Position numbers and translations under genes: made by a program
Assembly: GCA_009841115.1 (NCBI GenBank)
Contig: VXML01000107.1
Location: forward strand, 248,001-312,000
Direction: 5' to 3'
Length of the DNA: 64,000 nt
DNA from: Gemmatimonadota bacterium
GTDB lineage: Bacteria > Latescibacterota > UBA2968 > UBA8231
Shown here: piece by piece, positions 16,821 through 52,794 of the stretch
Numbering within the stretch: the first letter of the stretch is position 1
How the letters are laid out: every line of letters starts with the position of its first letter
The notes under the pieces: model-generated
Seen by the model: the letters and a program-made list of their open reading frames with translations, nothing else
Told to the model about the DNA's origin: nothing
Database searches by the model: none

Positions 16821-16875
16821 GTGGGCTACTGCGATAATGACGCCATGTGCGAGGTCCTCAAAAAGGAGAACTCCA

Positions 16876-28568: not shown

Positions 28569-28572
28569 AGCA

Positions 28573-30912: not shown

Positions 30913-33624
30913 TTACCGCAGATTCTCCAGACCAGCAAAGACGGAAATGAACGCACGCGTATTGGTGAAGCTCTCCTCGCCCTCTGGATTCCTGCGCTCC
31001 AACAGAATCCCCGATTGCATCGTGATCACATAGCCGAGGTACGAAGACCAGTTAGTCGCTTGAAAGGCGATCGATTGGGAATGGAAGTCCCCTTCTTCGT
31101 CGCCGAAGTCTTTCTGGAACAGAAACTCGCTGCCCATCTGTAGCTGCGTGGAGTGCAGAACATCCAGCACGGCGAATGCGCCAAACAGCTCGGTGAGCGT
31201 CTCCTTGTCCTCTGCGTCGAATAGGCCGCGGGACTGCTTTCTGTATTCGCTCTTCCAGAAGGGCTGCAATCCCACTCGTCCCAATTCCCGCTGGTACATC
31301 GCCTTGTTGATCAATCCAAAGAAGAACTCGTTTTCGTCCAATCCTATCCGGCGACGTTCCTCGCGAGCCATGCGCTGATGGAAGAGCACGTGGTTCAGTT
31401 TAGATTCGATCAGTATTTTTTCTGTCTTGAGTTGATGACCGATGAAGAATTGATTGACGAAACTGTCGCGCCCCAAGAGAGGATCTTCCATCTCGCGCTT
31501 GCTTTCTTGGGGTTCGGCCAGATCAATCAGCGTCTCGGGTGCATACTGGAGTAGCGGATCCTCAATGTCGTCCTGCACGGATTTGACCATCTCGTACATT
31601 CTCACGCGGCCATAACGCGGCCAAGTCTCGTCGTAGTCTAACATGCCATAGACCATGTGATTCTTCTGATCCGAAGAGATTAGCTGCTCTCGCAGGATTC
31701 CGCCCAGAATTCTCAGACCCGGTCGCAGGCGGAATCCCGTATAGACGTTCCACCCGTCGTGATCTCTGTCGTAGGGATAGTCGGGGTCCTTGTCGTTTTC
31801 GTAGAGATCGGGCCAGAAGTTGTTGTTCATGTCCCGTCCCCACAGCATTTCCGGGCGGTCCACCCACAACCGAATAAATGGTTCCCTCCAGTCGGGAATT
31901 GCATTGCGCCGGACCTCGTTATCGTTTTGGTTGAAGTCCGGTTGGAAGTCCCCATTCTGATCCCACCCTGGAAAGATCAGAAGATCCGGGAATAGCCAGT
32001 CCCCGCGAAAGGCATCGGGGACGCGATCTTGGTCGTCGTTGTCCTCTACGAGATCGACCTTGTTCTGCGGTGCCTCGTAATCGATGAATCCGTTTTCGTT
32101 TGAGATAAATGTCGTCGTGTTGTACTGGGGATCAATTCTATAGGCTTCGGCAAAACCAAACCAGCGTCCGCGTTGGTTGGACACGTTGATCAGCCAAGCA
32201 TCGTTGTGCGGCTCGTCCGTCAGCCCGGAGCTGGTCCTGTGGATCTCCTGGGAGACATTTGGATACTGGCGGATATTCCAGTTTCGATCGAACTCTCCGT
32301 ATAGCCGAAAGCCCAACACGTCGGAGACGCTGAGGCTGCCGCCGAGGATTTGGGTGGCCGTTGGCAAGCCGTACTCAAACCGCAGGGTCCGAAGATTGCT
32401 CAAATCCTGGATATTCCCCTCAGCTTGGGTGACCGGAAGCAACACTCTCGCACCCGCGGAATTCAACTGGCGGTCGGAACTCATCGAGATGTCGTAGTCG
32501 TTGGCAACAGTGAGTTCGAATTCGACCTTTGTGATCTCGTCCTTGGCACCGCTTGCGCGGTGGACAAAAATCTGGTCATCGAAGGAGTAGAGGAGCCGGA
32601 TTTCTTCACTGCCGTTGGCCTCCAACCGTCCCCCCGCTGGGATGCCGCCCTCCAATACGGGTTCGAAGCCTATCTCCTTGCCCCGGTTGACGAGGCCGCT
32701 TTCATAGGTGATGATGATGTCCGAGGAGCCGGGGAAGAACGCAGCTCCGCCCGTGCCGTCCTCCGGCGATTCATCGCGGAGTACGATCTCAATCGCGGAG
32801 ATGGGCACGGCATTCTGATCTTCCGTTAGCCTTCCTTTGAACAAGCTCGCCACCGGTGCCTCGTCGATCTTCGAGTTCGACTGATGGGAGTTAACCCCGT
32901 GTACGCCCAACGTCACGAAATCGCCGACAGCAGCCGTAAACCGTCCGCCGAAAAAGGTCGTGGTATTGGTGCGCCGGTCGTCCCGGTTAAAGGTCAGCCG
33001 AGGGCCACTAATTCTAGAAAAGATCAGCGTCTGCTGGTACTTATCCGTCGCCATGTCGAACTGGATTCCGTCCATTTGGACTTTGCTCAAAACCAGCGGC
33101 GTAAGGGTCGTCCGCAGCGTGTTGGACGTTGTCAGCGCGTAGTACGTACCCCCTTTTGCATCGGCGGCGACTACGACTTGGCTGAACCACCGTTCGAATC
33201 GATTCCCCTTGAAGAGCCGGTTGCCGAACTCTTCGGGTGTGTTCTGCTCCGTGTTGTAGATGAGCCATCCCTTGGATACGGCATTGCCGAACATGTCGTA
33301 GAGGTAGTCGCCCTCGATGCCGGGAGCGACGTAGCGATCAAAATCAGTGCGGGCGTAGTTGGTCGTCTGCCACTGCCGCCATCGGTATTCGGCGAACAAC
33401 TCTTGGGGCACGTACCACTTGCGCACCGCTGGATCAACCGAGTTGAGCGCTACTTGCACTCCTTGGGGCAGAAAGCTCGTCTCGTGCCCCCATTGCGTTC
33501 CCAGTCGATTCCCATAGTCGGGCCGACTGCCCGACTGGGCACTCGTTTCCCCGGCCATTCCCAACACCGCGGCCACAACGACGAGCTTCAGACTACGTCT
33601 CATTGTGTTTGTACAACTCGACAC
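30913..33624 (-). CDS. large outer-membrane-type protein, unknown family (paralogue of 40100-42766)
   Basis: A 903-residue exported protein, last gene of the minus-strand surface operon. A signal peptide (SLKLVVVAAVLGMAGETSAQ) is followed by a conserved N-terminal block (DPAVRKWYVPQELFAEY) shared with the 888-residue paralogue. The protein is rich in alternating beta-strand segments with many Trp/Tyr/Phe, and carries an Asp/Asn-rich stretch at about 550-630 (GWDQNGDFQPDFNQNDNE, RDMNNNFWPDLYENDKDPD) that looks like calcium-binding loops. It ends in AFISVFAGLENLR. I do not recognise the family; a surface barrel or solenoid is likely. Start GTG 33624 (GAGGA 4 bases upstream); ATG 33603 is an alternative. 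Confidence 0.7.
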   Translation of the reverse strand: MSSCTNTMRRSLKLVVVAAVLGMAGETSAQSGSRPDYGNRLGTQWGHETSFLPQGVQVALNSVDPAVRKWYVPQELFAEYRWRQWQTTNYARTDFDRYVAPGIEGDYLYDMFGNAVSKGWLIYNTEQNTPEEFGNRLFKGNRFERWFSQVVVAADAKGGTYYALTTSNTLRTTLTPLVLSKVQMDGIQFDMATDKYQQTLIFSRISGPRLTFNRDDRRTNTTTFFGGRFTAAVGDFVTLGVHGVNSHQSNSKIDEAPVASLFKGRLTEDQNAVPISAIEIVLRDESPEDGTGGAAFFPGSSDIIITYESGLVNRGKEIGFEPVLEGGIPAGGRLEANGSEEIRLLYSFDDQIFVHRASGAKDEITKVEFELTVANDYDISMSSDRQLNSAGARVLLPVTQAEGNIQDLSNLRTLRFEYGLPTATQILGGSLSVSDVLGFRLYGEFDRNWNIRQYPNVSQEIHRTSSGLTDEPHNDAWLINVSNQRGRWFGFAEAYRIDPQYNTTTFISNENGFIDYEAPQNKVDLVEDNDDQDRVPDAFRGDWLFPDLLIFPGWDQNGDFQPDFNQNDNEVRRNAIPDWREPFIRLWVDRPEMLWGRDMNNNFWPDLYENDKDPDYPYDRDHDGWNVYTGFRLRPGLRILGGILREQLISSDQKNHMVYGMLDYDETWPRYGRVRMYEMVKSVQDDIEDPLLQYAPETLIDLAEPQESKREMEDPLLGRDSFVNQFFIGHQLKTEKILIESKLNHVLFHQRMAREERRRIGLDENEFFFGLINKAMYQRELGRVGLQPFWKSEYRKQSRGLFDAEDKETLTELFGAFAVLDVLHSTQLQMGSEFLFQKDFGDEEGDFHSQSIAFQATNWSSYLGYVITMQSGILLERRNPEGEESFTNTRAFISVFAGLENLR

Positions 33625-33660
33625 TAGATCCTCAATAGCTATGCGACCTATCCAGCGGAC

Positions 33661-35769
33661 TCAATACACCACGGATACGGTACCCGTGTTCAATTGCTTC
33701 CCTAGATCCGCCTCCACCTTTACCGTGTAAACATACGTGCCTGGGGGCACGCGCTTTCCCGCTTCGTCCCGCCCGTTCCACTCGCGCTCGTACACCCCTG
33801 CTGCTCCGGGCTCTGTCTCTAGCCGACGGACCACCCTGCCCGCCAGATCGTACAGGGTAAGTACGTGGGGCACGCTGTTTCCCAGAGCGCGGATTTGATA
33901 TTGGATTAGGACTTGGTCGTTCACTCCGTCGCCGTTGGGACTGAAGGCCGCTGGAATGGCCTTCAGCTCGCCGATGAGTTCGCCTCCCCTAGGGGTTTTC
34001 ACGGACAGGGAATTGGTACTGAAGCGCAAGGTGGCATTGCCCTCCTCCACCTGTTGGCGGATGTCGGGATCGTCGCTGGAGAAAGCAAAGCCAGTGAACT
34101 TTTGTCCGAAGCGCAAAACCGGCACCTCGAAGACCACCTCAATGCGCTTTTCAGTATCCTCGCTGCCCACGAGCTTGTCGAATCCAACGACGATGCGGTC
34201 GTCTTGGATGTCGCGGAGGAACTCCTCTCCTACCTCTGCATCATCCACCTTTACCGAAAGCAGTCGCTCCACGCGAGTGGCGGTGGCGATTTCCAAGCGG
34301 TCGAAACCGCTGTTGCCCTCGCGCAGGATGGGCCGGACAACATAGGTGAAGGTGTGAGGTTGGAAATCCGTGGTCACCGTCGGTGAGATCTCCCCGATTA
34401 CCGCGTCGGCCACGGAATCGCCAAAGAGCAGTTCGATTCGCTCAATGCGCGGAGCTGTTTCACCCGTCGGAAAAAACAGCACCTCGAACTGGAGGTAGCG
34501 GGCCGGGCTCTTCGATAAGAAGGTTGCGCCGTCCGTCCACGCTGAGGGCGGCGCGGTCGCATCGCGCAGGCCAGCGGCGAAATCGTAGGCCGGAGACCAA
34601 AAGCTCCAGTTTTCGGTATCGACTTCCTTCTTGACCAGTTCAAATCCCCGCGTGCTGCCGCTAGAGAAGGGATCGGCCACAGTCACCGCGTTGAAGACAT
34701 CGTTGTATTCCCGCCGGTCCACCGAGGCGAACTGCCCAGTGCGCTGCTTCCTGCTGTAGCGGAACGGCTGCTCGGTGTTGCCCGTGCGAGTCCGCACCTC
34801 CACCCTCGTCCCCTCCGGCTCTGCGCCCTCCCAGCGAATTTTGCTCCAAGCGACGGGCCGCCCGAAATCCAAGATGTCCGTGCGATAGACCGTCTGCCGC
34901 ACGTAGCCCTCGCCAAATACTTGGAGTTCGGCGACTTCCCAGGTGCGCTCGGGATTGATGGGCCGGAGGGTGACCCACTTTACTGGCCGAGTGGGAAACC
35001 GTCGGTCCACTACGACATCGAGGTTTTCCGTAGTGCTTTCGATGATGTCGATGATCGGATCGTTCTTGGCCGTCAAACCCCGACTGATTTCGTAGAACCA
35101 CCGCTGGCCCCGCCGGGCGATGGAAGGTCGGTCGATGATCGGCGCACTGCCCGAGGCCACGCCCAACTCGAACCAGGGGAGGAAGTTGTCCTCAAAGGAG
35201 GGGCGGGGGAAGAACCGAATCCGGTTTATGGGCAACTCCCAACCGAGGTTGATGATGGCGTTTTTGATCCAGCCGTGGTTGACGCCTGTTTCCGTCGGCG
35301 ATAGCTCTACTGCTCTGACCATCGCCGTGGTGGAATCCCCGTCGCCGATATTCTGCAAGACGCCCTGTTCGATTCTTCCCCCTACACCGCCCCCAGAGCT
35401 AGCCACGAAGCCACCCCGTTCCTCGACCGTCTCCACTAGATTCTCGCTCGGGTCGATCCACACAGGCCGGAGCGAGGATTCACTCAGATCCATCATCCCA
35501 TTCGCCCGTGCCCCTTCGCCAATGGTGCCCCAGTCCCTGATTTCCACATCCGCGACCCGGTCGTAGGATATCGGTACAGCGCTCCCTCGGTCGATGATCT
35601 GCCCATCTTGGTCGAATACCAGGTATGCACCCCCTCCTTCGCTGGCCACGTCGATGAAGGAATTGTCCGCACCGACGCCCACTTGGAATTCAGACCGCGC
35701 CCATCCTCCATCTCCACCCGCTAGTAACAGCGCGCTGCTCAACAGACAGATAGGTCTCCAGAGAAACAT
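33661..35769 (-). CDS. secreted discoidin-like protein with FlgD-type C-terminal domain (702 aa)
   Basis: The start ATG 35769 has AAGGAG 6 bases upstream and gives a signal peptide (LLSSALLLAGGDGGWA); the frame extends to a TTG at 35808. An N-terminal region (about 90-300) with INLGWELPINRIRFFPRP looks like a discoidin-type ligand-binding sandwich. A central module has RVEVRTRTGN at about 325 and later SFWSPAYDF and ARYLQFEVLFF. The last 95 residues are a FlgD-Ig-like domain (SPNGDGVNDQVLIQYQIR, LYDLAGRVVRRLE, VPPGTYVYTVKV), ending VSVVY. Such domains often close surface or secreted proteins of FCB bacteria. Function unknown; one of three related genes here. Confidence 0.75.
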   Translation of the reverse strand: MFLWRPICLLSSALLLAGGDGGWARSEFQVGVGADNSFIDVASEGGGAYLVFDQDGQIIDRGSAVPISYDRVADVEIRDWGTIGEGARANGMMDLSESSLRPVWIDPSENLVETVEERGGFVASSGGGVGGRIEQGVLQNIGDGDSTTAMVRAVELSPTETGVNHGWIKNAIINLGWELPINRIRFFPRPSFEDNFLPWFELGVASGSAPIIDRPSIARRGQRWFYEISRGLTAKNDPIIDIIESTTENLDVVVDRRFPTRPVKWVTLRPINPERTWEVAELQVFGEGYVRQTVYRTDILDFGRPVAWSKIRWEGAEPEGTRVEVRTRTGNTEQPFRYSRKQRTGQFASVDRREYNDVFNAVTVADPFSSGSTRGFELVKKEVDTENWSFWSPAYDFAAGLRDATAPPSAWTDGATFLSKSPARYLQFEVLFFPTGETAPRIERIELLFGDSVADAVIGEISPTVTTDFQPHTFTYVVRPILREGNSGFDRLEIATATRVERLLSVKVDDAEVGEEFLRDIQDDRIVVGFDKLVGSEDTEKRIEVVFEVPVLRFGQKFTGFAFSSDDPDIRQQVEEGNATLRFSTNSLSVKTPRGGELIGELKAIPAAFSPNGDGVNDQVLIQYQIRALGNSVPHVLTLYDLAGRVVRRLETEPGAAGVYEREWNGRDEAGKRVPPGTYVYTVKVEADLGKQLNTGTVSVVY

Positions 35770-35804
35770 GCCCAACTCCTTGCGCCAGTCTTGCGGCGCG
35801 ATGG

Positions 35805-37883
35805 TCAATATGCGACTCCGATCGCTCGGGCCGCGCCGGTGCGGCGCGCATCGGCCTGAACTTCGACTCGGACCACGTACACGCCGGGAGCTACTAGCTG
35901 CCCCAACTCGTCCCGGCCATCCCAGGCCAAATCGCCGAAACGCTGCGGATCGTACAGGCCGTTCGTTCCTAAGCGAGATAGGAGTTGTCTCACGCGCCGA
36001 CCCGACAGGTCGAATACGGCGGCATTGATACCGGCTTGGCCCACGATAGTCACTACTTCAAAACTGATTGACGCCCGATCCCCAATCCCATCCCCGTTGG
36101 GGGTCACCACGGGGTTGACCTCGAGATTGCGCACCAGCCGCCCTGTGGTGAGCTGTGGACTCAGGACAGTGACACTGGAACGTCCTGGCGCGTCGTCAGC
36201 GCCGAGATAGGCCGCGTTGCCCGAAAGCACGTCCTGAAACGCTTCCTCTTCAATTAAGAGCACTCGTCCCTTGAAAGTATTGCTGAAAGAGAGCATCCTG
36301 CCCACGAATCGCACCATGACGACGGTGCCGCTCTCGCGCACTTGGGGAAAGCGCACCACGAAGCGCCTCCCATCCAACTCTTGGATGGCTGTATCCTCTT
36401 CCTCTGTCGGCGCATCTTGGACGGCGAAATCCCGTTCGAGAATGCGGTTCTGGTCGCCGTCAAGGATCTCGATTCCCTGCACGCTCCTGATCGGCTGGTC
36501 CGACCGCACCTCGATTGCGTCGAATCCTTGTAGCCCGGCCTCCATTTCCGTGCGCACCGCAAAGACAAAAGGCACGTCCGTTGCTCCCGCTACTTCGCGG
36601 GGGAATACCTCGCCCACCACTTCCCTAGCCAGTGGAGGTGAGGTGAAGGTGAAGGATAGGTTCTCCAGCACGACTGCGGAGTTCAGATCCTCGCTGATGA
36701 AATCCGCGCGGATTTGGACGTACTGTCGCGGGCCTGGCGAGGTGATGTCCGTACCTCCCTCGCCGGTGCCCACCACAGGGTCGTATGGTGCCGACCACGG
36801 GCTCCAGTTTTCTACGTCGTCGCGTACGGACCCGCGCTCAAACTCGTCTTTTCCCACAACGCCCCGGACCGGCAAGGCCATGTATTCCTTCCGCGTCAGT
36901 GGGTCGAGCGAATTCGCAAGGGAGGTCGCGAGTTCCTCGGCGTCCCTTCTGCCCACCTGTTTGCGGGTATATACAAAGGGTGTGATGTCGCTGCCGGTCC
37001 GGGTGCGGATCTCCACCCTCGCAGCCTCCTCATTGCCGATGGCGACCTGATCCCAGCGGAGCTGTCCCCAATTGGTGCCGGCCTGCATGTCGATGATGGG
37101 CGAGATATATCTGGCGGTGGGAAGGAATCCCTCCCCGAAGATCTGTATCTTCTCTAGCTCGAAGGATATACCCGAAATCGCTTCTAGCCGCACGAACCTC
37201 AGCAGACGGGGCGGATTTAGTGGAATTGTGGTCACTGGATCAATGTTATCGTTTTCGACCAGAAATTCCTCCCAGATTGGATTGCCGGCGTCGGTTAGAT
37301 TGAGACCATCGTTTACTCGGATTCTGAACTTTCTTAGAAAGTCTGACTGGAAGGGCGCGGTAGGGTTGGGAAACACCGTGTTACGGGGGAAGAAGCGGAT
37401 GCTGCGGACGCCTATGCGAGTTCCGAGGTCTATGTTGACGATGGTTCCGAGGGCGTTGTTGTCCTTGCGCGCCAAAGCCAACCCGGTCGGGTCCTCGGTG
37501 ATGAGACTCTCGAGGACCTTCCTCTTTTCCTCTCCTTCGATATCCGCTACCGAGGGCGCGGTGATAGACCCTCCGAAATCGAAGACTTGGCTGGCGACGT
37601 TGGTTCCCTCTCTGACCTGCCGGGGCAGAATGGCCTCGGGGTGATCCCCGCTCTCAAACTCGATCAGGTTCGACGGTGCGATCCCTATCTCGGTGACATT
37701 GGGGTCGAGAAACGTGCGGTGCTCGGGGATGATCGTCTCCACGTCTGCTCCGCTCGACGCTCCCTCCAGCCAGTCGATTTCTCCCCCTTTGCCGAGCGTC
37801 AGCCTCTCGACCGCATGAAGCGCCTGCGGTCCGCTCAGGACTAGGACAAGCGCCAAATAGACCCACGGTGCCGATGCTCGCAT
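35805..37883 (-). CDS. secreted discoidin-like protein with FlgD-type C-terminal domain (692 aa)
   Basis: The same architecture as its two relatives. I set the start at ATG 37883 (AAGG 7 bases upstream), which yields a signal peptide (VYLALVLVLSGPQALHA); the frame opens at 37988 but the extra 35 basic residues look spurious. The discoidin-like region contains IDLGTRIGVRSIRFFPRN. Around residue 291 is RVEIRTRTGS, then LTRKEYMALPVRG and NWSPWSAPYD. The FlgD-type end has TPNGDGIGDRASISFEV, VFDLSGRRVRQLL and VAPGVYVVRVEV, closing in AIGVAY. Translation probably couples with the next gene, since the two lie 35 bases apart. Confidence 0.75.
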   Translation of the reverse strand: MRASAPWVYLALVLVLSGPQALHAVERLTLGKGGEIDWLEGASSGADVETIIPEHRTFLDPNVTEIGIAPSNLIEFESGDHPEAILPRQVREGTNVASQVFDFGGSITAPSVADIEGEEKRKVLESLITEDPTGLALARKDNNALGTIVNIDLGTRIGVRSIRFFPRNTVFPNPTAPFQSDFLRKFRIRVNDGLNLTDAGNPIWEEFLVENDNIDPVTTIPLNPPRLLRFVRLEAISGISFELEKIQIFGEGFLPTARYISPIIDMQAGTNWGQLRWDQVAIGNEEAARVEIRTRTGSDITPFVYTRKQVGRRDAEELATSLANSLDPLTRKEYMALPVRGVVGKDEFERGSVRDDVENWSPWSAPYDPVVGTGEGGTDITSPGPRQYVQIRADFISEDLNSAVVLENLSFTFTSPPLAREVVGEVFPREVAGATDVPFVFAVRTEMEAGLQGFDAIEVRSDQPIRSVQGIEILDGDQNRILERDFAVQDAPTEEEDTAIQELDGRRFVVRFPQVRESGTVVMVRFVGRMLSFSNTFKGRVLLIEEEAFQDVLSGNAAYLGADDAPGRSSVTVLSPQLTTGRLVRNLEVNPVVTPNGDGIGDRASISFEVVTIVGQAGINAAVFDLSGRRVRQLLSRLGTNGLYDPQRFGDLAWDGRDELGQLVAPGVYVVRVEVQADARRTGAARAIGVAY

Positions 37884-38003
37884 TCTAGTGCCTTGCGCCG
37901 ACGGACAACTCCCCAATTGGGCGGTGCGTCGCCAATGCTGGCGACGGACGGCTGTGGAAATTCGCGCGGCATAGTCGAACAGGGTCATATTCTCACATCC
38001 CCG

Positions 38004-40046
38004 CTACGGGGTGCCCCCTTGGAGCAATGCTTCTAAATTTCCCAAGACCCGGCGGTCGGCCCGCTGGCGCAGCCGCTTTTCCCGGTATAGCTTGGCGGCT
38101 TGGGCCGCTTCCTCGGGTCGCCCCATGGCTCGGTAAACGCTTTCCATCAAACCGTAGGCTCGGTACTCGGCCCCAATGCTGAGGCCGGACTGCACGGCCC
38201 CAATGCTGAGGCCGGACTGCACGGCCCCAATGCTGAGGCCGGACTGCACGTCTGGATGCATTGCCGCTATCCTCTGCAAGTGCATTAGGGCTTCTTCGTT
38301 GCGGCCAGTTCTGTGCAGTAAGCCTGCCATACACAATAGAGCTGGGGCCGAATCGGGGTGATCTGCCAGTACGTCGCGCAACAGCTTCTCGATTCGCCCC
38401 AAGTTATCTTTTTCCATGCGGCCCAATACTTGTGCTAGCCGCCACCCCACAAGGCCCTCCCACTCCGCTAGCCCGACTATGATTCCATAGTGGACTGCTG
38501 CGGAGTCCAGCGCGGACTGCTGCTCCCAAGTGCGGGCTAGCTGGAAGCGCACGCGATGGCTATCGGGCCAGACCGCTACGACCTTTTGGTAGGCAGCAAT
38601 GGCGTCCTCAAGCGCCCCCTGAGCCGCACGGGCGTCGCCCAATCTCCCCGCGAGAGAAGGCTCGTTTTCTTGTGCCGCCAGATCGGCGTAGATCGCCGCT
38701 GCTTCCTCCGCTCGACCTGCCCTTAAATACGACTCTGCCAGCGCGACCCAGATGTCCTTGTTGACTGCATGCCGCTGCACCAGCGAGTGGTAGATTTCCG
38801 CGGCGTGTTCGTACGCGCCGGTGTCGAAGTAGATTTCCGCCAGTTCCGCGTACGGTCGAATTCCAGCATCTTCGGCCTCGATGGCCCGCTCGTATGCGGC
38901 AATGGAATTGGCTTTCATGTCCAACTCTCGGTAGGCATAACCCGCCCAGGTGTCGTGCAAACTCTGAGCCCTGGCTGCGGCAGCAATAGGAAAATTTGCC
39001 GCCAATAGAACCAGAGCCAAGGCAATGCCCCAAACGCGCTGTCTTTTTTTTAGCAACAGAGGAATCGCCGCCAGCGCCCCCGGAAGCAAGACCAAGGCCG
39101 CACTCAGTCGCGAGCGACCGGACGCCTCCTCCAAGAGCGATCCCAGCATCCAAGCGCCGGCAAACAGCAGTGGCAGCGCGCGATACCGATCCATCTCCTC
39201 CCCGCGGACTGCGACGAGAACTCCCACTAGCGCCAGGGGCCCTACCAGCCCAAAGGGAAAACCCAACAAGGCTCGCCACATGAGGGGAGCCAACATCCAC
39301 GAAGGCGCAGCGGCGCGATAGGGGTCTATATCGCCCAAGACCTCGGCACCATGCCAAAACAAATACGCCCGCATTGCCATTTCCTTCAGTCCTAAACCAC
39401 TGATCGAGGGTATTAGTCCCTCCCAGCTCCATACCGCACCTCCTAGAACCAGTACTAGAGCTGCTCCCGCAAAAAACCACCACGCCGCCCTCCGGTCCCC
39501 GCTTCCCTGCACCACCCATACAAATGCCACGCCGACGGCGAATAGCGCCCGGAAATCGACCAGTGCAGTCACGCCGCCCACTGCCCCCATAACCCCGGCC
39601 CTCAACGGCCCCATACCAGCCGATCCCACCAACCCCCACAGGAGCAACAGGCCCGAGAAAGCTGCTAACACGGCCGGCGTTATCTCGCCTCCGTAGTAAA
39701 TCGCCGGACCGTACAGCACAGCCGCAATACCCGCCCATCGGCCTACCGCAGGTGAGAATAGCTGTCTGCCGATTGACCACACCAGCACGCAGGCGAGCCC
39801 TCCGATGCCGACCTGAATCACGCGCAGAATCCACAGTCCCGTCTCCTCCTGCAGCGCGACCGCACACAAAGCCGCGTATAATCGCGAATACCATCCTCCA
39901 TCTCCCAACCCTCCCGCGTAGTACGCCGCAGATCCTACTGCCACTTCTCCAAAAGCGCTCTGCTCCCACTGCCATACGTGCGCGAGCCGCACGGCAATAC
40001 CGGCCGCCAACAGCCCTGCCCACTCCCAAGCATTCGCTTCCTTCAT
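38004..40046 (-). CDS. polytopic membrane protein with C-terminal TPR repeats
   Basis: A 680-residue two-part protein. Residues 1 to about 355 form some ten membrane helices laid out like ArnT/PMT-type glycosyltransferases (an early loop with SAAYYAGGLGDGGWYSRLY, then YGPAIYYGGEITPAVL), though no clear catalytic Asp pair is seen. Residues about 365-680 are tetratricopeptide repeats (SIAAYERAIEAE, YEHAAEIYHSL, EDAIAAYQKVVAVWPDS). Near the end three copies of a 9-residue unit (VQSGLSIGA) are inserted between two TPR helices. It may glycosylate or scaffold the surface proteins encoded beside it; that is inference. Confidence 0.75.
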   Translation of the reverse strand: MKEANAWEWAGLLAAGIAVRLAHVWQWEQSAFGEVAVGSAAYYAGGLGDGGWYSRLYAALCAVALQEETGLWILRVIQVGIGGLACVLVWSIGRQLFSPAVGRWAGIAAVLYGPAIYYGGEITPAVLAAFSGLLLLWGLVGSAGMGPLRAGVMGAVGGVTALVDFRALFAVGVAFVWVVQGSGDRRAAWWFFAGAALVLVLGGAVWSWEGLIPSISGLGLKEMAMRAYLFWHGAEVLGDIDPYRAAAPSWMLAPLMWRALLGFPFGLVGPLALVGVLVAVRGEEMDRYRALPLLFAGAWMLGSLLEEASGRSRLSAALVLLPGALAAIPLLLKKRQRVWGIALALVLLAANFPIAAAARAQSLHDTWAGYAYRELDMKANSIAAYERAIEAEDAGIRPYAELAEIYFDTGAYEHAAEIYHSLVQRHAVNKDIWVALAESYLRAGRAEEAAAIYADLAAQENEPSLAGRLGDARAAQGALEDAIAAYQKVVAVWPDSHRVRFQLARTWEQQSALDSAAVHYGIIVGLAEWEGLVGWRLAQVLGRMEKDNLGRIEKLLRDVLADHPDSAPALLCMAGLLHRTGRNEEALMHLQRIAAMHPDVQSGLSIGAVQSGLSIGAVQSGLSIGAEYRAYGLMESVYRAMGRPEEAAQAAKLYREKRLRQRADRRVLGNLEALLQGGTP
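38175..38247. repeat. in-frame 27-base tandem repeat, three units
   Basis: Three near-perfect 27-base units lie within the TPR gene; each contains the 19-base core AATGCTGAGGCCGGACTGC (38175, 38202, 38229). On the coding strand each unit adds nine residues (VQSGLSIGA). Since 27 is divisible by three, copy-number change keeps the frame. The core also occurs at 157-175. Confidence 0.85.
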
Positions 40047-40099
40047 CGCCAGTCCCTCTTACACGACCCCAACGCATTTCTTTGCTTCCCGATGCCCAT

Positions 40100-42766
40100 C
40101 TAGTTCAGACCTGCGAACACGCTTACGAAAGTCGTGTTGGTCGTGACGGCGTCTGATAATTCGAAGTCCCTAGTCCGCAACCGCATCCCGGCCAAGGCCA
40201 CGATCTTATACCCGAGGTACGTGGATCGGTTGGTCAACTGTAGCCCCAGCGACACAGACCTGAAGTCGTTGGCATCGTCCGCGAAATCCTCGTTCCAGAG
40301 GTACTCTAGGCCCCCTTGCAGCGTACTGCCGGTCAGGAAGTCCATTTCCACAATGACGCTGAACAACTCTCTTAGCTGTTCGCGCTTCTCTTCTCCAAAC
40401 AGGCCGCGCGTCTGTTTGAGGAACTCGCTCTTCCAGCGTGGCTCGATAGTCAAAACGCCTATCTGACGGCGGTGCTTGACTTTGTTGATCGCCCCAAAGA
40501 AGAAGTCGCTTTTGCGCAGGTCGAGTTCTGTGCGCGTGCGCTCGTCCATGAGCTGGTGAAACAGCGTGTAGTTCATCCGCGTCTCGACTTTCGTCCGGCC
40601 GATGTGGACCTTGTGCCCGACGAAGAGGTGATTCACCCACGTGTCGCGCGCAAGCATGGGATCCTCCACCTGCGTCAATGTGCCCCCGTCGATAGACTGG
40701 CTGGGCAGCCATTGAAGCAGGCGATTGGGGATATCGTCCTCGACTCGCTTCGACATCTCAAACAGTTTAAAATCACCCCACCGCGCCGAGCTTCCGTCCA
40801 TTTTCACGAGCGCGTAGTATTGCTCATTCTTCTGGTCCGACGATATGAGGTGCTCGCGCATCGCGCCCCCTGCTATCTGCAGTTCAGGCGTCAAATCATA
40901 CGCGGCGTATACGTTGAACCCTCTGTGGTCCTTGCGGTACGGATAGTCCGGCTGATCGTCGTTTTCGAACTGGTCCACCCAGAAATTGTTGTTCATGTCA
41001 ACACCGAACAGGAATTCCGGCCTATCGACGTCAAAGCGCAGGAACGGCTCGTCGTAATCGGGCCGGCGATTGGCGCGGACCGCGTTGTCGTTCTGGTTGA
41101 AATCGGGGATGAAGTCGTTGTTCTGGTCCCAACCGGGAAAGACGCGGTCGTCGCCGGGCAGGAAGTCGAAGCGGACGTTGTCGGGGAAGCGGTCGTGATC
41201 GTCGTTGTCATCGACGAATTCCACTAGACCGCGGCGCGGGCTCTCGTAGTCAATCTGGCCATTGCCGGCGGTTACGAATGTCGTGGTGTTGTAATGCGGG
41301 TCCATGCCGAAGGCCTCCGCGAACAAGGAGACAGGACCGGCCCGCTTCCAAGCATTGATGAACCAAGCGGGTCGATACGGCTCTCCAGCAGTCCCCGAAC
41401 TCGTGCTGTGCCGCGCTAGGTTCTGATTGGGGAATTTCCGGTAGTTCCAGTTGAGGTCGGCCTCGCCGTAGAAGTTGAAGCCGTGCACATCGAGCAACTC
41501 GAAGGTTGCTCCCATGATATGGGTGGCCGTAGGTAGGCCGTATTCAAAGCCTACAGTGCGGATATTCGACACGTCCTGTACGTTCCCGGCGGCTCGTTCT
41601 ATCAGCAGCAGCACGGTCTGGCCTTGCCGATTGATCTGTCTGTTTGAAGTAGCCCAAATCTGGTAGTCATTGCCCACCACCAACTCGAATTCCACCTGCA
41701 TGATCGAGTCCTTTGGGGCACTCGCGTTCGCCGTAAAACGGGGATTGTCGAAATCGTATTTCAGTCTGATCTCCTCCGTCCCATCTGCGGCGAGGAACCC
41801 AGCGCGCTGAAATCCTCCAGAGATCGCCGGGCCAAAGCCGATATCCGTCCCCCGGTCTACGGTTCCGTCCGTATAGGTGATGACCACGTCAGAGCCTGAT
41901 TCAAAGAACGCGGCTCCGCCCATCCCATCCCCTGGGGAATCGTCGCGCAGCACCACCTCGACAAAGTCGATTGTCTGATTCTGATCAATCGTCAGCCCGC
42001 CCTTGAATGGATTGCCCGCCAACTCGTCGCTCAAGGTGTTCGACTGGTGGGCGTTGATCATGGTCAGCCCCAGTATGGCGAAGTCCGTCAGTTGGCCCTG
42101 TAGGCGTCCGCCGACCAAGATGGTGTTGTTGGTGCGTTGCAGTTCTAGGTCGGCGGTTGATTCGCCACCGGGGTTGCTAATGCGCGAGTACAATACCGTG
42201 CCTTCGACTCGATCCGTGGCAATGTCGAATTGCACCCCGTCGAAGGTCGGCTTGCGGAAGGTCAGCGGTGTGAGAGTCGTGTTCAACTCGCTGCTCACTG
42301 TCAGCGCATAACCGTACTGGCCCTTCTTGTCTTGGGCGATGACGACATTTGAGAACCAGTTATCAAAGCGAGTCGATTTGAACAGCGTATTGCCGAACTG
42401 AGCTGGGCGGTCTTGGGCGTTGTTGTATATGAGAAAGCCACGAGTCACGAAATTTCCGTAGATGTCGTAAAAGGAGTCTCCTTCGAGGCGGATATCTACG
42501 TAGCGCTGGTACAAGGACCTCGCGTAGTTGGTATATTCCCACTGCTGCCATTGGTACTCGTGGAACAACTCTTGGTTGACATACCAGCGCCGGAGGGCGG
42601 GATCTACGGCGTTGACTAAGACGATCGGGCCTTGGGTCCGCCCCGGTAAAGGCGCTCCGAGTGACTCCCCAATGCGCGCACCGTAGTCGTCCCGGGCGGC
42701 GCTGCTGCCAATCTGGAAAACAAGTGCGCTCAATACGGCCCAAGCGGCTAGATATCCGCTTCTCAC
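40100..42766 (-). CDS. large outer-membrane-type protein, unknown family (paralogue of 30913-33624)
   Basis: An 888-residue exported protein. The GTG at 42766 has AGGGAGGG 6 bases upstream and starts a signal peptide (LAAWAVLSALVFQIGSSAA). It aligns along its length with the 903-residue protein: DPALRRWYVNQELFHEY near the N-terminus, an EGDxxYDxxGN block, FGNTLFKSTRFDNWFSNVV, SRISNPGG, LISSDQKN and a matching end (FVSVFAGLN). The Asp/Asn-rich stretch at about 540-620 is also kept (GWDQNNDFIPDFNQNDNA). No known family recognised. It follows a discoidin/FlgD gene, as its paralogue does, so the pair of gene types seems to be a duplicated unit. Confidence 0.7.
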   Translation of the reverse strand: MRSGYLAAWAVLSALVFQIGSSAARDDYGARIGESLGAPLPGRTQGPIVLVNAVDPALRRWYVNQELFHEYQWQQWEYTNYARSLYQRYVDIRLEGDSFYDIYGNFVTRGFLIYNNAQDRPAQFGNTLFKSTRFDNWFSNVVIAQDKKGQYGYALTVSSELNTTLTPLTFRKPTFDGVQFDIATDRVEGTVLYSRISNPGGESTADLELQRTNNTILVGGRLQGQLTDFAILGLTMINAHQSNTLSDELAGNPFKGGLTIDQNQTIDFVEVVLRDDSPGDGMGGAAFFESGSDVVITYTDGTVDRGTDIGFGPAISGGFQRAGFLAADGTEEIRLKYDFDNPRFTANASAPKDSIMQVEFELVVGNDYQIWATSNRQINRQGQTVLLLIERAAGNVQDVSNIRTVGFEYGLPTATHIMGATFELLDVHGFNFYGEADLNWNYRKFPNQNLARHSTSSGTAGEPYRPAWFINAWKRAGPVSLFAEAFGMDPHYNTTTFVTAGNGQIDYESPRRGLVEFVDDNDDHDRFPDNVRFDFLPGDDRVFPGWDQNNDFIPDFNQNDNAVRANRRPDYDEPFLRFDVDRPEFLFGVDMNNNFWVDQFENDDQPDYPYRKDHRGFNVYAAYDLTPELQIAGGAMREHLISSDQKNEQYYALVKMDGSSARWGDFKLFEMSKRVEDDIPNRLLQWLPSQSIDGGTLTQVEDPMLARDTWVNHLFVGHKVHIGRTKVETRMNYTLFHQLMDERTRTELDLRKSDFFFGAINKVKHRRQIGVLTIEPRWKSEFLKQTRGLFGEEKREQLRELFSVIVEMDFLTGSTLQGGLEYLWNEDFADDANDFRSVSLGLQLTNRSTYLGYKIVALAGMRLRTRDFELSDAVTTNTTFVSVFAGLN

Positions 42767-42808
42767 GAGTACCCTCCCTTGAGTTGCTTGCTAGCGTGAA
42801 GCTCGAGT

Positions 42809-45800
42809 TCAGTAGGCGAGGCCGACGACGCGGCTGCGCCGGGTGCTGGCAAGCCCTTGCTGATCGGCTCGTCCATGCACCTGGACAATGTACAGACCCG
42901 GAGGCACGAGGGTCCCTCCGGCATCTCGCCCATCCCATTGCACCAATCGGCGTCCACCGAGCAGATTCTGCTCAAAGCGCTTCACTTCCCGGCCGGCCAG
43001 CGTCGTTATGCGGACGGTCACCGGGCGGGGTTCAAACACGCGGAACAGGGAAAAGCCGATGGTTGCCACATCGTTAATTCCGTCGCCGTTCGGGGTAAAG
43101 AGGTTGGGCTGGATTTCCATATCCCGCACCAAATCTTCCGCTCCAAGTGCGCTGACTACCAGCCCGCTTCCCGGCGTCAGGGACGTCACCTCTCCTCCCC
43201 CGCCCAACTGGAACGGCAGTCCGACAGTGGAGTTCCGGCCCGCCAGCTTCAAACGGGTGCCATGGAGGAAGACCTCGGCTGCGAACCGCAGGCGCACTAG
43301 GCGCGTCTGGCCAACCACCTTGCCCTGCCGACTCCTAGGCAGACTTTCGTACGCCTCGGCCGTGAGTGGGTCGCCGCGCTCGTCGAAGGCGGTTTCTCTC
43401 GTCAACGACGTTGCCTTGCGGAAGAATCGCACCGGCCCTCTCGCCTCTGGCGCGAGATTGGCGAAGGTTTGTTCATCCACTTCCTCCAGACTCTCTCCGT
43501 CGTCTCCGGCGAGCTTCTGGAAGTAGCGGATCTCCCCCTGTTGCTGTTCGGGAAGCCTGCTGTATGCTACTTGGTCCAGCAAAGTCCCCCCTTCGCTCGT
43601 CGGCACCTCTTCGCCCTCTTCGACGCGGCGGTAGAATACGTTGCTTCCGTCGCCCATTGCCTGATACAAGACCTCGGGGAACCGAACTTGCAAGGAATCT
43701 CCCCGACCGCTCAGAACGCGCAGGAGGTCCCCTGCGGCCGAGGCCAGCCCTTCCTCGACGCGATTGGCGTACAACCGGTAGGGTGCTCCCGCGGCAAATT
43801 CCCCTTCCGTGCCGAGGGCTGCGTCGATTAACTCCATGTCTAAGGCTGGCTCCGAGCGCAGTCGCAGTTCATCGAATCCGGGACTCGGATTGGGGCGCTC
43901 TACGACGGCGGCGCTGACGAACACCGCAAAGGTGTCGCGCCTTCCCGGGACGACCTCCTGAGGCCAGATTTCCCCGGTTAGTCCAACGACCGATGGATCG
44001 GTGTACTCCATGCGCACTGACTTGATGGATGGCGGATCAACTCCTGCCTCGGCCTTTAGACGCGCCTCAATCTGGACGAAGCGGCGCAGGCTCAGGGAAG
44101 TTATTTCGGCCCCCGGCCGGATATAGGCTTCGCTCCATTCGCTCCAGTCAGCCGTGGGAACAAAGACGGTGTCGATCGGTCCTCTGAGAAAGAAGGCGAG
44201 CGTTTTGTGTTTTTTCGCCGTGACTTCGCCGCCGCCCGAGTTGTAGTACTTGATCTGGCGCTCGACCTCGCTGCCCGTCCGGGTTCTCAACTCGACACTG
44301 GTCCCCGGAGGCGTCTGGGCCTCCCAGTTTATCGACACGAGATTGGACTGATCGGGCACAGCCAGCGGGCCGGAGGTGAGGATCACTTCGGCGGGAGGGC
44401 CTTCTGAAAAGACCATGAACTCGCCGATCCCCGGAGTCCGGCTGATCGTGACCGTGCCGCCCGGATCGTTTTCTAGGGCGCGAAACTCGAAGAATCGCAC
44501 CTGCCGGGCCGGTTCGAGGATGTCGGCCAATTCGAGGAAGAATCCCACGCTGGAGTTGATCTCCCGCTCTTGAGAGCTGATCCGCGTGAATTTCAGTTGA
44601 CCCTCCGAATCGCGTTCGCCCGCGCTGCCTTGGAGCAGGTAGCCCCGTATTGAAGGCGACTGGAAGTAGCCCTGAGACAGCACCCTGAACTCTTTGGCCC
44701 ACACGGTCCCGCCGAGGTCGGCGATCATCATATTCTCAGTCGGGGTTTCTTCCAGCCAATAGTTGTTCTGGTAGAAGCTGGCCAATACTCCGTCGAAGGC
44801 CTGCTCCCCTCCCCCGCTGGGAAGCTGTTGGATGATCCTGCCGCCGCCCTCGATCATGTTAAAGGCTACATTGTCGCCCCAGCCCCACACATCTACTTCT
44901 GCTAGTCGGGGCAGTTCGCGCCGGAAGAACCGCTTTTCGCCGCGGCGATCTGCTGGTAGTTCGAAATAGGTCGTCGAATCCACCGGCTCTCCTCGACCCG
45001 TTTCGCTCTTCGAGAGGTATTCGACGTCGCCACGCGCCTCGACGGGCAGCGTTAGGTAATCGCTCTCTGAAATCTCTTCGGCCCTGCCTCCTTTGGTGTC
45101 AGTAACCTGAAAGCGAATCGTCTCGACGAGCTTCCCGTTCCAACTCAAACTCGCCCTAGGTTGCTCCAGCCGTTTTTCCACCAAGCCGCTCCCAGCCAAG
45201 GGCAGCAGGCCGCTCGTTTGCGTCGCGTCGATGACGATCTCCCGTTGCTCCTCGTTGATGCCCAGAAGCGGTTCTAGTACTTCGAACTGAAAATTTGCAT
45301 CTTCGTCCACCAGTGGAAACTGGGCGTCCTCAAAAAACACGAGCAAGCGCCGGAAAGGGTCGCCCAATTCCGCATCGACGTACTGCAAACGAATCCGCTC
45401 CACCGGAACCGTCCGACCCAGCGAAATTTCCACCCACCAGTCTTCTATGGGATCGTTGAGATCTGGCTCCCAGAAGGTCGTTGGATCTCCATCCAAGAGA
45501 TTGGGCGCTAGTTCCAGATTAGAGCCGGCCCTGCTGGGGCCGGGACGGAGGAAGTGATCGAAAACAGGATTGCCCGCGGTGTCCTCCTTGAAATTGCCCT
45601 TCACATCGACGGATCGAGTGCTGTCCAGATTCATCACCCGAGGCTTGTCTGAGCTGATGTCCACTTGTCGCCTGAAGGAGCGATCATCTAGGAGATTATA
45701 GACGGAGCGAAAGTCCCGGACCTGTACCGTCCCGCTGCTGTCTAACCGCACCAAGTGAGTGGGCATTTCCCACGTCTGCCAGTGCTCTAGGCGGTCCACG

Positions 45801-45922
45801 ACGAGTTCGTTGCCCCGCTGGTCGAATCCTTCTGCCGTTTGGGCTTGAGTCCGTTCTCCCCCAAACCACAAGATCGCCCCTGCCGCGACGGCCCAGACCA
45901 GAACTTTACGGGAAGTCTTCAT
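42809..45922 (-). CDS. large secreted discoidin/FlgD-type protein with YxxLP repeats (1037 aa)
   Basis: A signal peptide (VLVWAVAAGAILWFGGERTQAQ) leads into a discoidin-like region (about 130-250; LLDGDPTTFWEPDLND and WWVEISLGRTVPVERIRL are typical of F5/8C-like domains), and a second one near 370-480. A repeat of the form Y-x-x-L-P-x-x-x-R-G-x-x-x-F/Y appears at 287-305, 317-335, 785-803, 818-836 and 856-874. VELRTRTGS is at 543-551 and SEWSEAYIRPG at 594-604. The FlgD-type domain starts at TPNGDGIND (943-951) and the protein ends in VVGLAY. The ATG at 45922 is 3 bases after the foldase stop. Probably surface exposed; function unknown. Confidence 0.75.
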   Translation of the reverse strand: MKTSRKVLVWAVAAGAILWFGGERTQAQTAEGFDQRGNELVVDRLEHWQTWEMPTHLVRLDSSGTVQVRDFRSVYNLLDDRSFRRQVDISSDKPRVMNLDSTRSVDVKGNFKEDTAGNPVFDHFLRPGPSRAGSNLELAPNLLDGDPTTFWEPDLNDPIEDWWVEISLGRTVPVERIRLQYVDAELGDPFRRLLVFFEDAQFPLVDEDANFQFEVLEPLLGINEEQREIVIDATQTSGLLPLAGSGLVEKRLEQPRASLSWNGKLVETIRFQVTDTKGGRAEEISESDYLTLPVEARGDVEYLSKSETGRGEPVDSTTYFELPADRRGEKRFFRRELPRLAEVDVWGWGDNVAFNMIEGGGRIIQQLPSGGGEQAFDGVLASFYQNNYWLEETPTENMMIADLGGTVWAKEFRVLSQGYFQSPSIRGYLLQGSAGERDSEGQLKFTRISSQEREINSSVGFFLELADILEPARQVRFFEFRALENDPGGTVTISRTPGIGEFMVFSEGPPAEVILTSGPLAVPDQSNLVSINWEAQTPPGTSVELRTRTGSEVERQIKYYNSGGGEVTAKKHKTLAFFLRGPIDTVFVPTADWSEWSEAYIRPGAEITSLSLRRFVQIEARLKAEAGVDPPSIKSVRMEYTDPSVVGLTGEIWPQEVVPGRRDTFAVFVSAAVVERPNPSPGFDELRLRSEPALDMELIDAALGTEGEFAAGAPYRLYANRVEEGLASAAGDLLRVLSGRGDSLQVRFPEVLYQAMGDGSNVFYRRVEEGEEVPTSEGGTLLDQVAYSRLPEQQQGEIRYFQKLAGDDGESLEEVDEQTFANLAPEARGPVRFFRKATSLTRETAFDERGDPLTAEAYESLPRSRQGKVVGQTRLVRLRFAAEVFLHGTRLKLAGRNSTVGLPFQLGGGGEVTSLTPGSGLVVSALGAEDLVRDMEIQPNLFTPNGDGINDVATIGFSLFRVFEPRPVTVRITTLAGREVKRFEQNLLGGRRLVQWDGRDAGGTLVPPGLYIVQVHGRADQQGLASTRRSRVVGLAY

Positions 45923-45925
45923 CCG

Positions 45926-47569
45926 CTACAATTCCTCCACCTCACCAACGGGAAGGTCGTAGAGCGTTATTTGGTTGCGGTGTTGCTCCCTGAGCTTGCG
46001 AATAAGGCTCGCCATGGCTTCGTCCGTTCTCGCCTTGAGCAGCAATCGGCGCGCTTCCGAGCGGGCCTCGTCATACGGCTGCACTTCCGGCTCTATGTGC
46101 CCTAGCACCTCAAAGACCGCGAAGCCGTCTCCGACCGGCACCGGGCCTACGACATCGCCCGTTGCGGCACCGAACGCCCCCGCGACCAATTCCGGAAAGT
46201 GCGCCTCGTGAATGCGGAAAAATCGCCTTATTCCCTGCAACTGGGGATGGACGTGGCGGGCCACCAACGGGCGTTTGAGGAGGGCGGCGAGTTCTGCTCC
46301 CGCATCGATCTCCTCGCGCAGGTCCCGTGCCTGTTCCCAAGTATCCACATAGAGACGCCGGATGACGACAGACTCCGGTACCCGGAACTGCCCCTGATTG
46401 CGGTCGTAATACGCGCGGATGTCTTTTTCCTCAATAGGACCGCTCTCTGCCGCGGCCTGCTCCTCAAGAGCTTTTAGCATCAACTGCTGTTTCTTCTTCT
46501 CGGCAAATTCTTGGAACTCGGGCTCTTTATCCCACGCTTGGCTACGGGCCGCCGCGGCGAACAGATAGATTGGCAGCACCTCGGAGCTTGCCAACTGCAT
46601 CACGTGGCCGCTGTCCCTCAAGGCACTGCGGAAGCCAATGCGCAGCAATGCGGTCAAAAAGTCGCGCACGGTCAGCGAGTCTCCGTCGAAGTCGCACAGC
46701 ACCCGGGCACCCAAAGGCTCCTCTAGACTCTGGGGAGCGACACCCGCGCTGCCGAGTGCGAGAGCGACTTCTATTCCTTCCGGCCTCACGCGAAGCGCTA
46801 AATGGTGGGCGAGTTGCTCGTACTCTTGGTGGCTTTGCCGGCTCCGGTGTTCCCTAAGAGTACGTTCGTGCACCAACTCCCACACATCCGCCAAGGGCCG
46901 CGAGCGCGTGTTCTCAAACTGGTAGATCTGCCACGCCCCACCCAAGTCGGCGACAGGGGCAAGACGCCTATCTTGGATGGAGAAGAACACTTCCTCTGGT
47001 ATGCGGTAGCGGGCTAGAGCTTCGCGGCCGATCCAGCCGACGGTCCCATCCCCTAGCGCGAGCGAATCCATCTCTCCATACGAATGCGCCACCTCAGCTA
47101 ATTCCGCTCCAGAACGAACGCGCCCGAGGGCTTCCGCTAGCAGGTTTTCGTCGGCGACGATGAGCCGAGTGAGGAAGCGCTCCTTATCGAAGCCTAGGCG
47201 GAGAAAGGTCCGCTCTACATCGTCTGCGGAAACTGCGATATCCGCGATCCCGCTCCGCTCTCTGTATAGCTGCGCTAGCCAACGGCGTTCTTGGTGGGCT
47301 AGCGCGCGCTGAATCTCGGCATCGGTAGCCAACCCTCGTCGGCGAGCTTCCGCGAGAGTGAGGTGGTGGTCGATAAGGGACCAGACGTGATCCTCGACCG
47401 CGACGTGGCCGGTGTCCTGGCTGCGTAGCCCTTGGGGCAGCCGTTCTACAAACCGCTCTACCTGCGAAAGCGAGATCTCGGCGTCGCCGATTCGGGCAAC
47501 GACCGGGTCCTCCTGCTCGCAGGCGACCACTGAGACGGCTATTAGGACGAGGACGATTCTTGGCTTCAT
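45926..47569 (-). CDS. lipid-anchored parvulin-type peptidyl-prolyl isomerase (SurA/PrsA-like)
   Basis: A 547-residue periplasmic foldase. The N-terminus is a lipoprotein signal (IAVSVVAC, C17). A SurA-N-like helical region is followed by a first parvulin-like domain (about 133-230: TRLIVADENLLAEALGRV, then GTVGWIGREAL) and a second near 400-510 (IRRLYVDTWEQARDL, GDVVGPVPVGDGFAVFEV). Two rotamase-like domains plus a lipid anchor combine SurA and PrsA traits. It is the first gene behind the promoter at 47648-47676 and is followed after 3 bases by the 1037-residue surface protein, so it probably chaperones the exported proteins of this operon. Confidence 0.85.
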   Translation of the reverse strand: MKPRIVLVLIAVSVVACEQEDPVVARIGDAEISLSQVERFVERLPQGLRSQDTGHVAVEDHVWSLIDHHLTLAEARRRGLATDAEIQRALAHQERRWLAQLYRERSGIADIAVSADDVERTFLRLGFDKERFLTRLIVADENLLAEALGRVRSGAELAEVAHSYGEMDSLALGDGTVGWIGREALARYRIPEEVFFSIQDRRLAPVADLGGAWQIYQFENTRSRPLADVWELVHERTLREHRSRQSHQEYEQLAHHLALRVRPEGIEVALALGSAGVAPQSLEEPLGARVLCDFDGDSLTVRDFLTALLRIGFRSALRDSGHVMQLASSEVLPIYLFAAAARSQAWDKEPEFQEFAEKKKQQLMLKALEEQAAAESGPIEEKDIRAYYDRNQGQFRVPESVVIRRLYVDTWEQARDLREEIDAGAELAALLKRPLVARHVHPQLQGIRRFFRIHEAHFPELVAGAFGAATGDVVGPVPVGDGFAVFEVLGHIEPEVQPYDEARSEARRLLLKARTDEAMASLIRKLREQHRNQITLYDLPVGEVEEL

Positions 47570-52629: not shown

Positions 52630-52794
52630 CGCTTTTTCCTCGGTATTGCCATAAAACTGCGATTGCGCGCCGATCAAAAACCACGTAAGTCAATCTGCAA
52701 TGGTTTTGCCGCGATGGCTACCTTCGATCACTAGGATGTCCGCCAATCTTGGCGTCGATTAATCTATCGCTAGCTAGGGAGCTTAGAAAACCAA

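Follow-up and report, generated by a model that had tools for sequence, protein, structure and literature searches.

A multi-copy cassette of large predicted outer-membrane barrels, discoidin/FlgD proteins and a foldase in one Latescibacterota lineage: a candidate surface capture complex

The window, which is the whole 64,000-nucleotide stretch of DNA analysed here, carries on its minus strand a run of genes designated A to H (Table 1). The preliminary description had reported the first seven of these as collinear minus-strand genes, and all seven open reading frames lie where it had placed them, at the lengths it had given, with intergenic gaps of -4 to 53 nt and a GC3 that is uniform from A to G (0.67-0.74). 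Its account of the gene contents also agrees with the present one, namely a Rotamase_2 lipoprotein (A), FlgD/CHU_C-type ends in B, E and F, and two paralogues (C and G). However, its operon of seven genes was one gene short, since H, which co-evolves with the barrels, had been missed. Conservation of the gene order in relatives, which the same description had proposed to look for, was found in congeners as well as in paralogous operons: the order A-H is kept in four congeneric operons (L068, L069, L070 and L072) and in one paralogous operon as it occurs in a congener (L073), and the order A-G or B-H is found in three paralogous operons of the window's own genome (L097, L098 and L099). Because it recurs in both congeneric and paralogous operons, the A-H order is far beyond chance. 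Upstream of A, the letters of the promoter proposed earlier are indeed present (TTGACC at 47676-47671 and TTATAA at 47653-47648, separated by 17 nt); however, promoter-like matches in the region are no commoner than in shuffles (8 versus 5.6 +/- 2.2), and this element therefore stands only as a candidate promoter of A-G.

Table 1. Coordinates of the cassette genes, of a conserved segment within C and of an adjacent gene pair in the window
Feature	Position	Strand	Description
A	45926..47569	-	Rotamase_2 parvulin-type peptidyl-prolyl isomerase with SurA-like N-terminal region and lipoprotein signal VVAC, 547 aa
B	42809..45922	-	Secreted discoidin-like protein with FlgD/CHU_C C-terminal domain, clade B, 1037 aa
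C	40100..42766	-	Predicted outer-membrane barrel of an undescribed family, first version, with Sec signal, 888 aa
Asp/Asn-rich segment in C	40925..41305	-	Nearly invariant; residues ~488-614 (464-590 in the model), DxNxD-type motifs
D	38004..40046	-	TPR protein with degenerate GT-C (PMT_2-like) membrane domain, 680 aa
E	35805..37988	-	Discoidin-fold, Ig-like and C-terminal FlgD/CHU_C-like protein, clade E, 727 aa
F	33661..35808	-	Discoidin/FlgD protein, clade F, TTG start, 715 aa
G	30913..33624	-	Predicted outer-membrane barrel, second version, 50% identical to C, 903 aa
H	29849..30784	-	Secreted CBM9-like protein, eighth gene; predicted mature N-terminus His25, His143; 311 aa
ASPIC/UnbV-FG-GAP protein and TPR protein pair	47856..50926	-	PF07593, 3e-20

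The identity between C and G extends across 884 columns, and both proteins gave zero matches in Pfam, NCBIfam and PDB sequences, in line with the earlier view of the system as a candidate undescribed one. Of the two outcomes by which the preliminary description would have been refuted, a match of the large proteins to a known secretion or adhesion family and a gene order kept in no relative, neither was obtained. Additionally, a Pfam scan of 44 members of the barrel family, whose lengths range from 860 to 1000 aa, returned no credible family, and it is relative to the libraries searched that the family is called undescribed here. A TonB-dependent-receptor barrel or plug was matched neither by C and G in Pfam and NCBIfam nor by the 44 family members in Pfam, and no match to the PorP family was obtained in Pfam/NCBIfam. 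Kinship with SprA, for which a profile-profile comparison had been proposed, was rejected, as hhalign gave a probability of 0.5% against the genome's own SprA. Prediction of the 888-aa protein alone, likewise proposed beforehand, yielded a large barrel: mature C, modelled with AlphaFold2 from 44 sequences (pLDDT 68, pTM 0.66), is predicted to consist mostly of membrane-type strands, about 23-24 in number, in a model of moderate confidence. In this model an inserted domain (residues ~221-386 in model numbering, to which 24 is added for the full protein) is well predicted, and the N-terminal ~118 residues, which are conserved in the alignment, are unresolved. The Asp/Asn-rich segment, which forms a long inter-strand stretch in the model and corresponds to invariant columns of barrel alignment A1, is predicted to be extracellular and possibly binds calcium. 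When the model was compared with the PDB by Foldseek, only generic barrels were matched (MtrB, LptD, SlpA and PapC, with a target TM of at most 0.37), and C and G are therefore left without an assigned fold family. An usher topology was also considered and dropped, since the loop lengths of the model indicate an outside position for the inserted domain, which sets it apart from the usher plug.

The C-terminal TPNGDG-ND motif is present in B, E and F, and their domain matches differ in strength. In F, both FlgD_ig (5e-11) and CHU_C (5.5e-10) were matched, the latter passing its cut-off (39.7 versus 27 bits); in B, CHU_C (2.7e-5), FlgD_ig (4.8e-5) and F5/8 type C (1e-4) all remain below cut-off; the C-terminal FlgD_ig/CHU_C-like domain of E is a weak match, and TIGR04131 is below cut-off in all three. 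CHU_C was matched by 18 of the 20 members of alignment A2 at E<=0.01, and E and F share 27% identity. The discoidin/CBM32 fold of E was recognised from its structural model (pLDDT 74.5), for which Foldseek retrieved 4zxe at a target TM of 0.72, PorU being matched as well. No SusD-type surface lipoprotein was found among B, E and F, whose matches are to discoidin, FlgD and CHU_C domains.

As regards the remaining genes, A (PF13145 Rotamase_2, 4.9e-14; VVAC lipobox) has, to judge from its sequence, the parvulin domain and export signal of SurA/PrsA-type peptidyl-prolyl isomerases, its best PDB relative being HP_0175 (6e-8). The description of D as a membrane and TPR protein holds for the TPRs, which are matched in the window protein; its membrane part, which gave no PMT_2 match and is devoid of the VDA.TY and FWQPPLYP motifs and of the large loop, is a GT-C/PMT_2 domain in decay, as it is throughout the window's clade, and the D proteins of sister cassettes do match PMT_2 (L100, 1e-10; L111, 4e-11). 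By joining a PMT_2-like membrane domain to TPRs, the sister-cassette D proteins recall the GT-C/PMT and TPR architecture of the O-mannosyltransferases TMTC1-4 (PMC7801869), from which the window D differs in having lost the motif region. In the counterparts of D at L097:8174-9109 and L099:12597-13664, the TPRs are kept and the GT-C/PMT_2 membrane domain is absent.

The CBM9-like assignment of H comes from PF06452, matched at 2e-5 by the L118 copy, the window protein being below threshold. Of 45 H proteins, 38 have a predicted mature N-terminus that is His, and these 38 all carry a second His (His143 in H of the window); five of the others are without both, one has only the second and one is truncated. 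This co-variation (Fisher 1.7e-5, a value that ignores kinship) makes the pair a candidate histidine-brace-like metal site. H thereby resembles the copper proteins of the LPMO, X325 and CopC types in its predicted N-terminal His and one co-varying His; however, its sequence is CBM9-like and lies outside the brace folds named in a review of the field, which are LPMOs, X325/Bim1 and CopC (PMC7924993). In the literature searched, no paper pairs a histidine brace with CBM9.

C was used to search the assembly that contains the window (6.16 Mb, 94.6% complete, 7.6% contamination) for relatives, and the regions around them were fetched and their open reading frames called by a longest-ORF rule. The cassette has been amplified within one Latescibacterota lineage: about 33 loci, a count that includes the window and omits L120 as the same as L119, hold 49 barrels, 89 discoidin/FlgD proteins, 24 foldases and 22 H-like proteins, and the core genes occupy ~391 kb, or 6.4% of the assembly. 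L119 (on contig C20) and L120 (on C66) represent the same region, probably duplicated in the assembly. Single-barrel cassettes make up more than half of the total. It had been proposed that one discoidin/FlgD protein accompanies each large barrel, which the loci do not support, as the number of FlgD proteins does not track that of barrels and most complete cassettes have three, whether they have one barrel or two. One protein from each of the clades B, E and F (clade supports of 0.46-0.87) was found in the window and in 14 fetched loci, five of them single-barrel; nine further loci, with one barrel found in each, have three FlgD proteins whose split between E and F is unresolved, and clade B is single-copy in nearly every cassette.

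The partners also diverged together with the barrels. In Mantel tests, which like the enrichment tests below use simple nulls, the correlation (rho) with barrel similarity was 0.82 for the FlgD proteins, 0.79 for H, 0.55 for the foldase and 0.44 for the TPR proteins. Additionally, of the 32 Rotamase_2 copies in the genome, 24 are no more than 10 kb away from a barrel gene, against 4.1 expected (P ~1e-15, binomial with a uniform background). This co-divergence and the position of Rotamase_2 beside the barrels bear out the proposal of a multi-part envelope or surface unit with its own foldase, and H belongs to the same unit as A-G, since it co-diverges with the barrels and the gene order recurs in congeners and paralogous operons. 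A tree of all 49 barrels unites the window's own with those of the C1, C112 and C91 operons and one from L119 in a fully supported clade of nine rows, within which the G-types group together (100/99) across paralogous operons, and the tandem-pair cassettes give a second, independent pair of mirrored clades. Because the tree holds two independent sets of clades, it can be concluded that barrels became paired long ago, on two occasions, and have stayed so; the two barrel versions recognised earlier were thus copied along with the operon.

DUF6785/6784 membrane proteins are enriched near the cassettes, with 20 of the 45 copies in the genome lying within 20 kb against 8.7 expected; one copy is in the window (26586-28613), and DUF6785 has no mention in the literature searched. 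Enolase-superfamily (MR_MLE) genes are not enriched near cassettes (7 of 77, against 14.9 expected), and none of 21 genuine TonB barrels lies within 10 kb of them. In the window, the genes that come after H encode, in turn, an enolase-superfamily protein, a DUF6785/6784 protein, a DUF4432 protein and a family-5 solute-binding protein. A census of cassette neighbours, made without a background control, gave a mixed picture, with some sugar transporters and sugar-acid enzymes and no dominant glycan-degrading family. UnbV proteins, of which the genome has 52 stretches, are enriched near cassettes (P 3e-8), and their divergence showed no significant relation to that of the barrels (Mantel rho 0.13). 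The UnbV/TPR pair, enriched by position but with no co-divergence of UnbV with the barrels, was therefore left out of the core. At 47856-52677, a TPR protein lies between two ASPIC/UnbV-FG-GAP proteins, and two PQQ-dependent dehydrogenase-like proteins with C-terminal ankyrin repeats are encoded at 10908-13793 and 16837-19893. Elsewhere in the genome, SprA_N was matched at 4e-23 in a 2128-aa open reading frame and seven stretches exceed the cut-off for the PorV family, matches by which a T9SS translocon appears to be present.

Near-identical operons were found by genome search in Latescibacterota MAGs of the same genus as the window, some of which were named Gemmatimonadota by their submitters. 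Among the 386 genomes searched, strong barrel matches are confined to Latescibacterota, with none in the sister families f2-f4 of the same class, and 7 genomes from beyond the phylum give weak partial matches. A barrel relative lies directly upstream of ExbB-ExbD-ExbD in two genomes that belong to other phyla (L175 and L177), and in a third genome outside the phylum (L178) ExbB adjoins it; in these three loci, no FlgD protein was found beside the barrel relative. The ExbB that adjoins the barrel relatives is fused to a carboxypeptidase-regulatory-like domain at L175:11428-12486, L177:11858-12931 and L178:10252-11427. ExbB-ExbD-ExbD is also found near a barrel relative in another Latescibacterota family (L181 and L183) and in the genome's own divergent locus L128, together with a TonB-like DUF4159 protein and a long TPR protein. 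No ExbBD was found in the stretches of classic cassettes read. The linkage in deep relatives suggests an energy coupling of the barrels, which for those of the cassettes rests on analogy, since ExbBD adjoins deep relatives only. It also suggests uptake, which the preliminary description had not considered and which is added here. The Latescibacterota literature searched makes no mention of this cassette system.

Taken tentatively, and at somewhat less than even confidence, the best explanation is that the cassette encodes a lineage-amplified surface capture complex, probably for uptake, which resembles SusCD in its working and not in its kinship. One or two large barrels (C and G) would sit in the outer membrane, and B, E and F would reach the surface, probably via the genome's type IX route, and dock on the barrel, there presenting CBM32/discoidin-like domains that may bind sugars or other ligands. 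The foldase A would aid the folding of exported proteins or of the barrel, H would act as a secreted CBM9-like accessory, and the barrel would pass the ligand inward, energised by ExbB/ExbD encoded elsewhere, the cassette copies having presumably diverged for different ligands. We infer that the proteins are at the surface and dock there, which kind of ligand is bound, that it is taken up and that the cassette barrels are coupled to an energy source. This explanation is supported by the amplification and the co-diverging partners, the B/E/F trio, the CBM32/discoidin fold of E, the large-barrel model, the ExbBD-linked deep relatives, the DUF6785/6784 enrichment and the presence of SprA and PorV-family proteins in the genome. 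It is counted against by the lack of a plug or TonB-receptor match, of enolase-superfamily enrichment and of dominant glycan-degrading neighbours, by the absence of ExbBD from classic cassettes and by a barrel model of moderate confidence. A more specific proposal, unlikely in its full form, is that of an energised uptake complex unrelated to TonB-dependent receptors, made of 22-24-strand barrels with their own ExbB/ExbD lineage, a type-IX-exported discoidin/FlgD trio and mostly a CBM9-like protein with a histidine-brace-like site, in ~33 copies.

Uptake is favoured over adhesion, which is a close rival, possible if rather doubtful. Here the cassette would be an adhesion or surface-coat platform whose barrels are anchors, perhaps exit partners, for three type-B-CTD-like proteins attaching the cell to host matrix, particles or cells, and the cassette copies would form an adhesin repertoire, arranged as when the PorP-like SprF binds SprB. 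The tails of B, E and F, with their TPNGDG-ND motif and CHU_C/FlgD domains, resemble type B CTDs, for which PorP-like barrels are the proposed anchors, as in the SprB-SprF example (PMC9143113), and in both systems the genes for surface proteins with CHU_C/FlgD tails have a beta-barrel gene as neighbour. Sponge-associated Latescibacterota, moreover, have been reported as rich in adhesion-type genes (PMC8163846), and the enolase-superfamily catabolic genes show no enrichment near cassettes. However, a barrel of 860-1000 aa, with no T9SS model match, is far larger than anchoring requires, each cassette has three partners, and the tails of B and E fall below curated cut-offs. The deep relatives, furthermore, are accompanied by ExbBD, no FlgD protein having been found next to three of them, and a fixed B/E/F trio suggests a defined complex over an open adhesin set.

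It is decidedly improbable that the cassette is a dedicated secretion system, with the barrel as a pore exporting the co-encoded discoidin/FlgD proteins and H. The co-encoded foldase, the strong barrel-FlgD co-divergence and the weak Foldseek similarity to ushers would fit such a role, but a SprA and several proteins of the PorV family already exist in the genome, it would be unusual for each cargo set to have a pore to itself, and the barrel has no SprA homology, generic Foldseek matches and an inserted domain that the model puts outside, unlike an usher plug. Least probable of all are ordinary Sus-like polysaccharide utilisation loci with highly diverged SusC and SusD. The likeness to SusC/SusD of Bacteroidota lies in that both combine an outer-membrane barrel with surface ligand-binding proteins in dozens of paralogous loci per genome, with ExbBD as a plausible energy source (beside deep relatives only in the cassette family), and the amplification, the carbohydrate-binding folds and some sugar transporters and sugar-acid enzymes nearby agree with it. 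On the other hand, no TonB receptor, plug or SusD match was obtained in the 44 barrels or their partners, none of the genuine TonB barrels lies within 10 kb of a cassette, the one catabolic family tested (the enolase superfamily) is not enriched near them, and the cassette has its FlgD/CHU_C-tailed discoidin trio and, in most copies, a foldase.

A surface system with a barrel family absent from the libraries searched thus takes up about 6% of this genome. If the capture complex serves uptake, it would represent an independent invention of the job done by SusCD and would explain the feeding of an uncultured phylum; if it is adhesive, the cassettes would amount to an extensive set of adhesins. 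With a composition this regular, the complex lends itself to prediction and testing, and its barrel family is connected through the ExbBD-linked relatives with envelope energetics outside TonB receptors.
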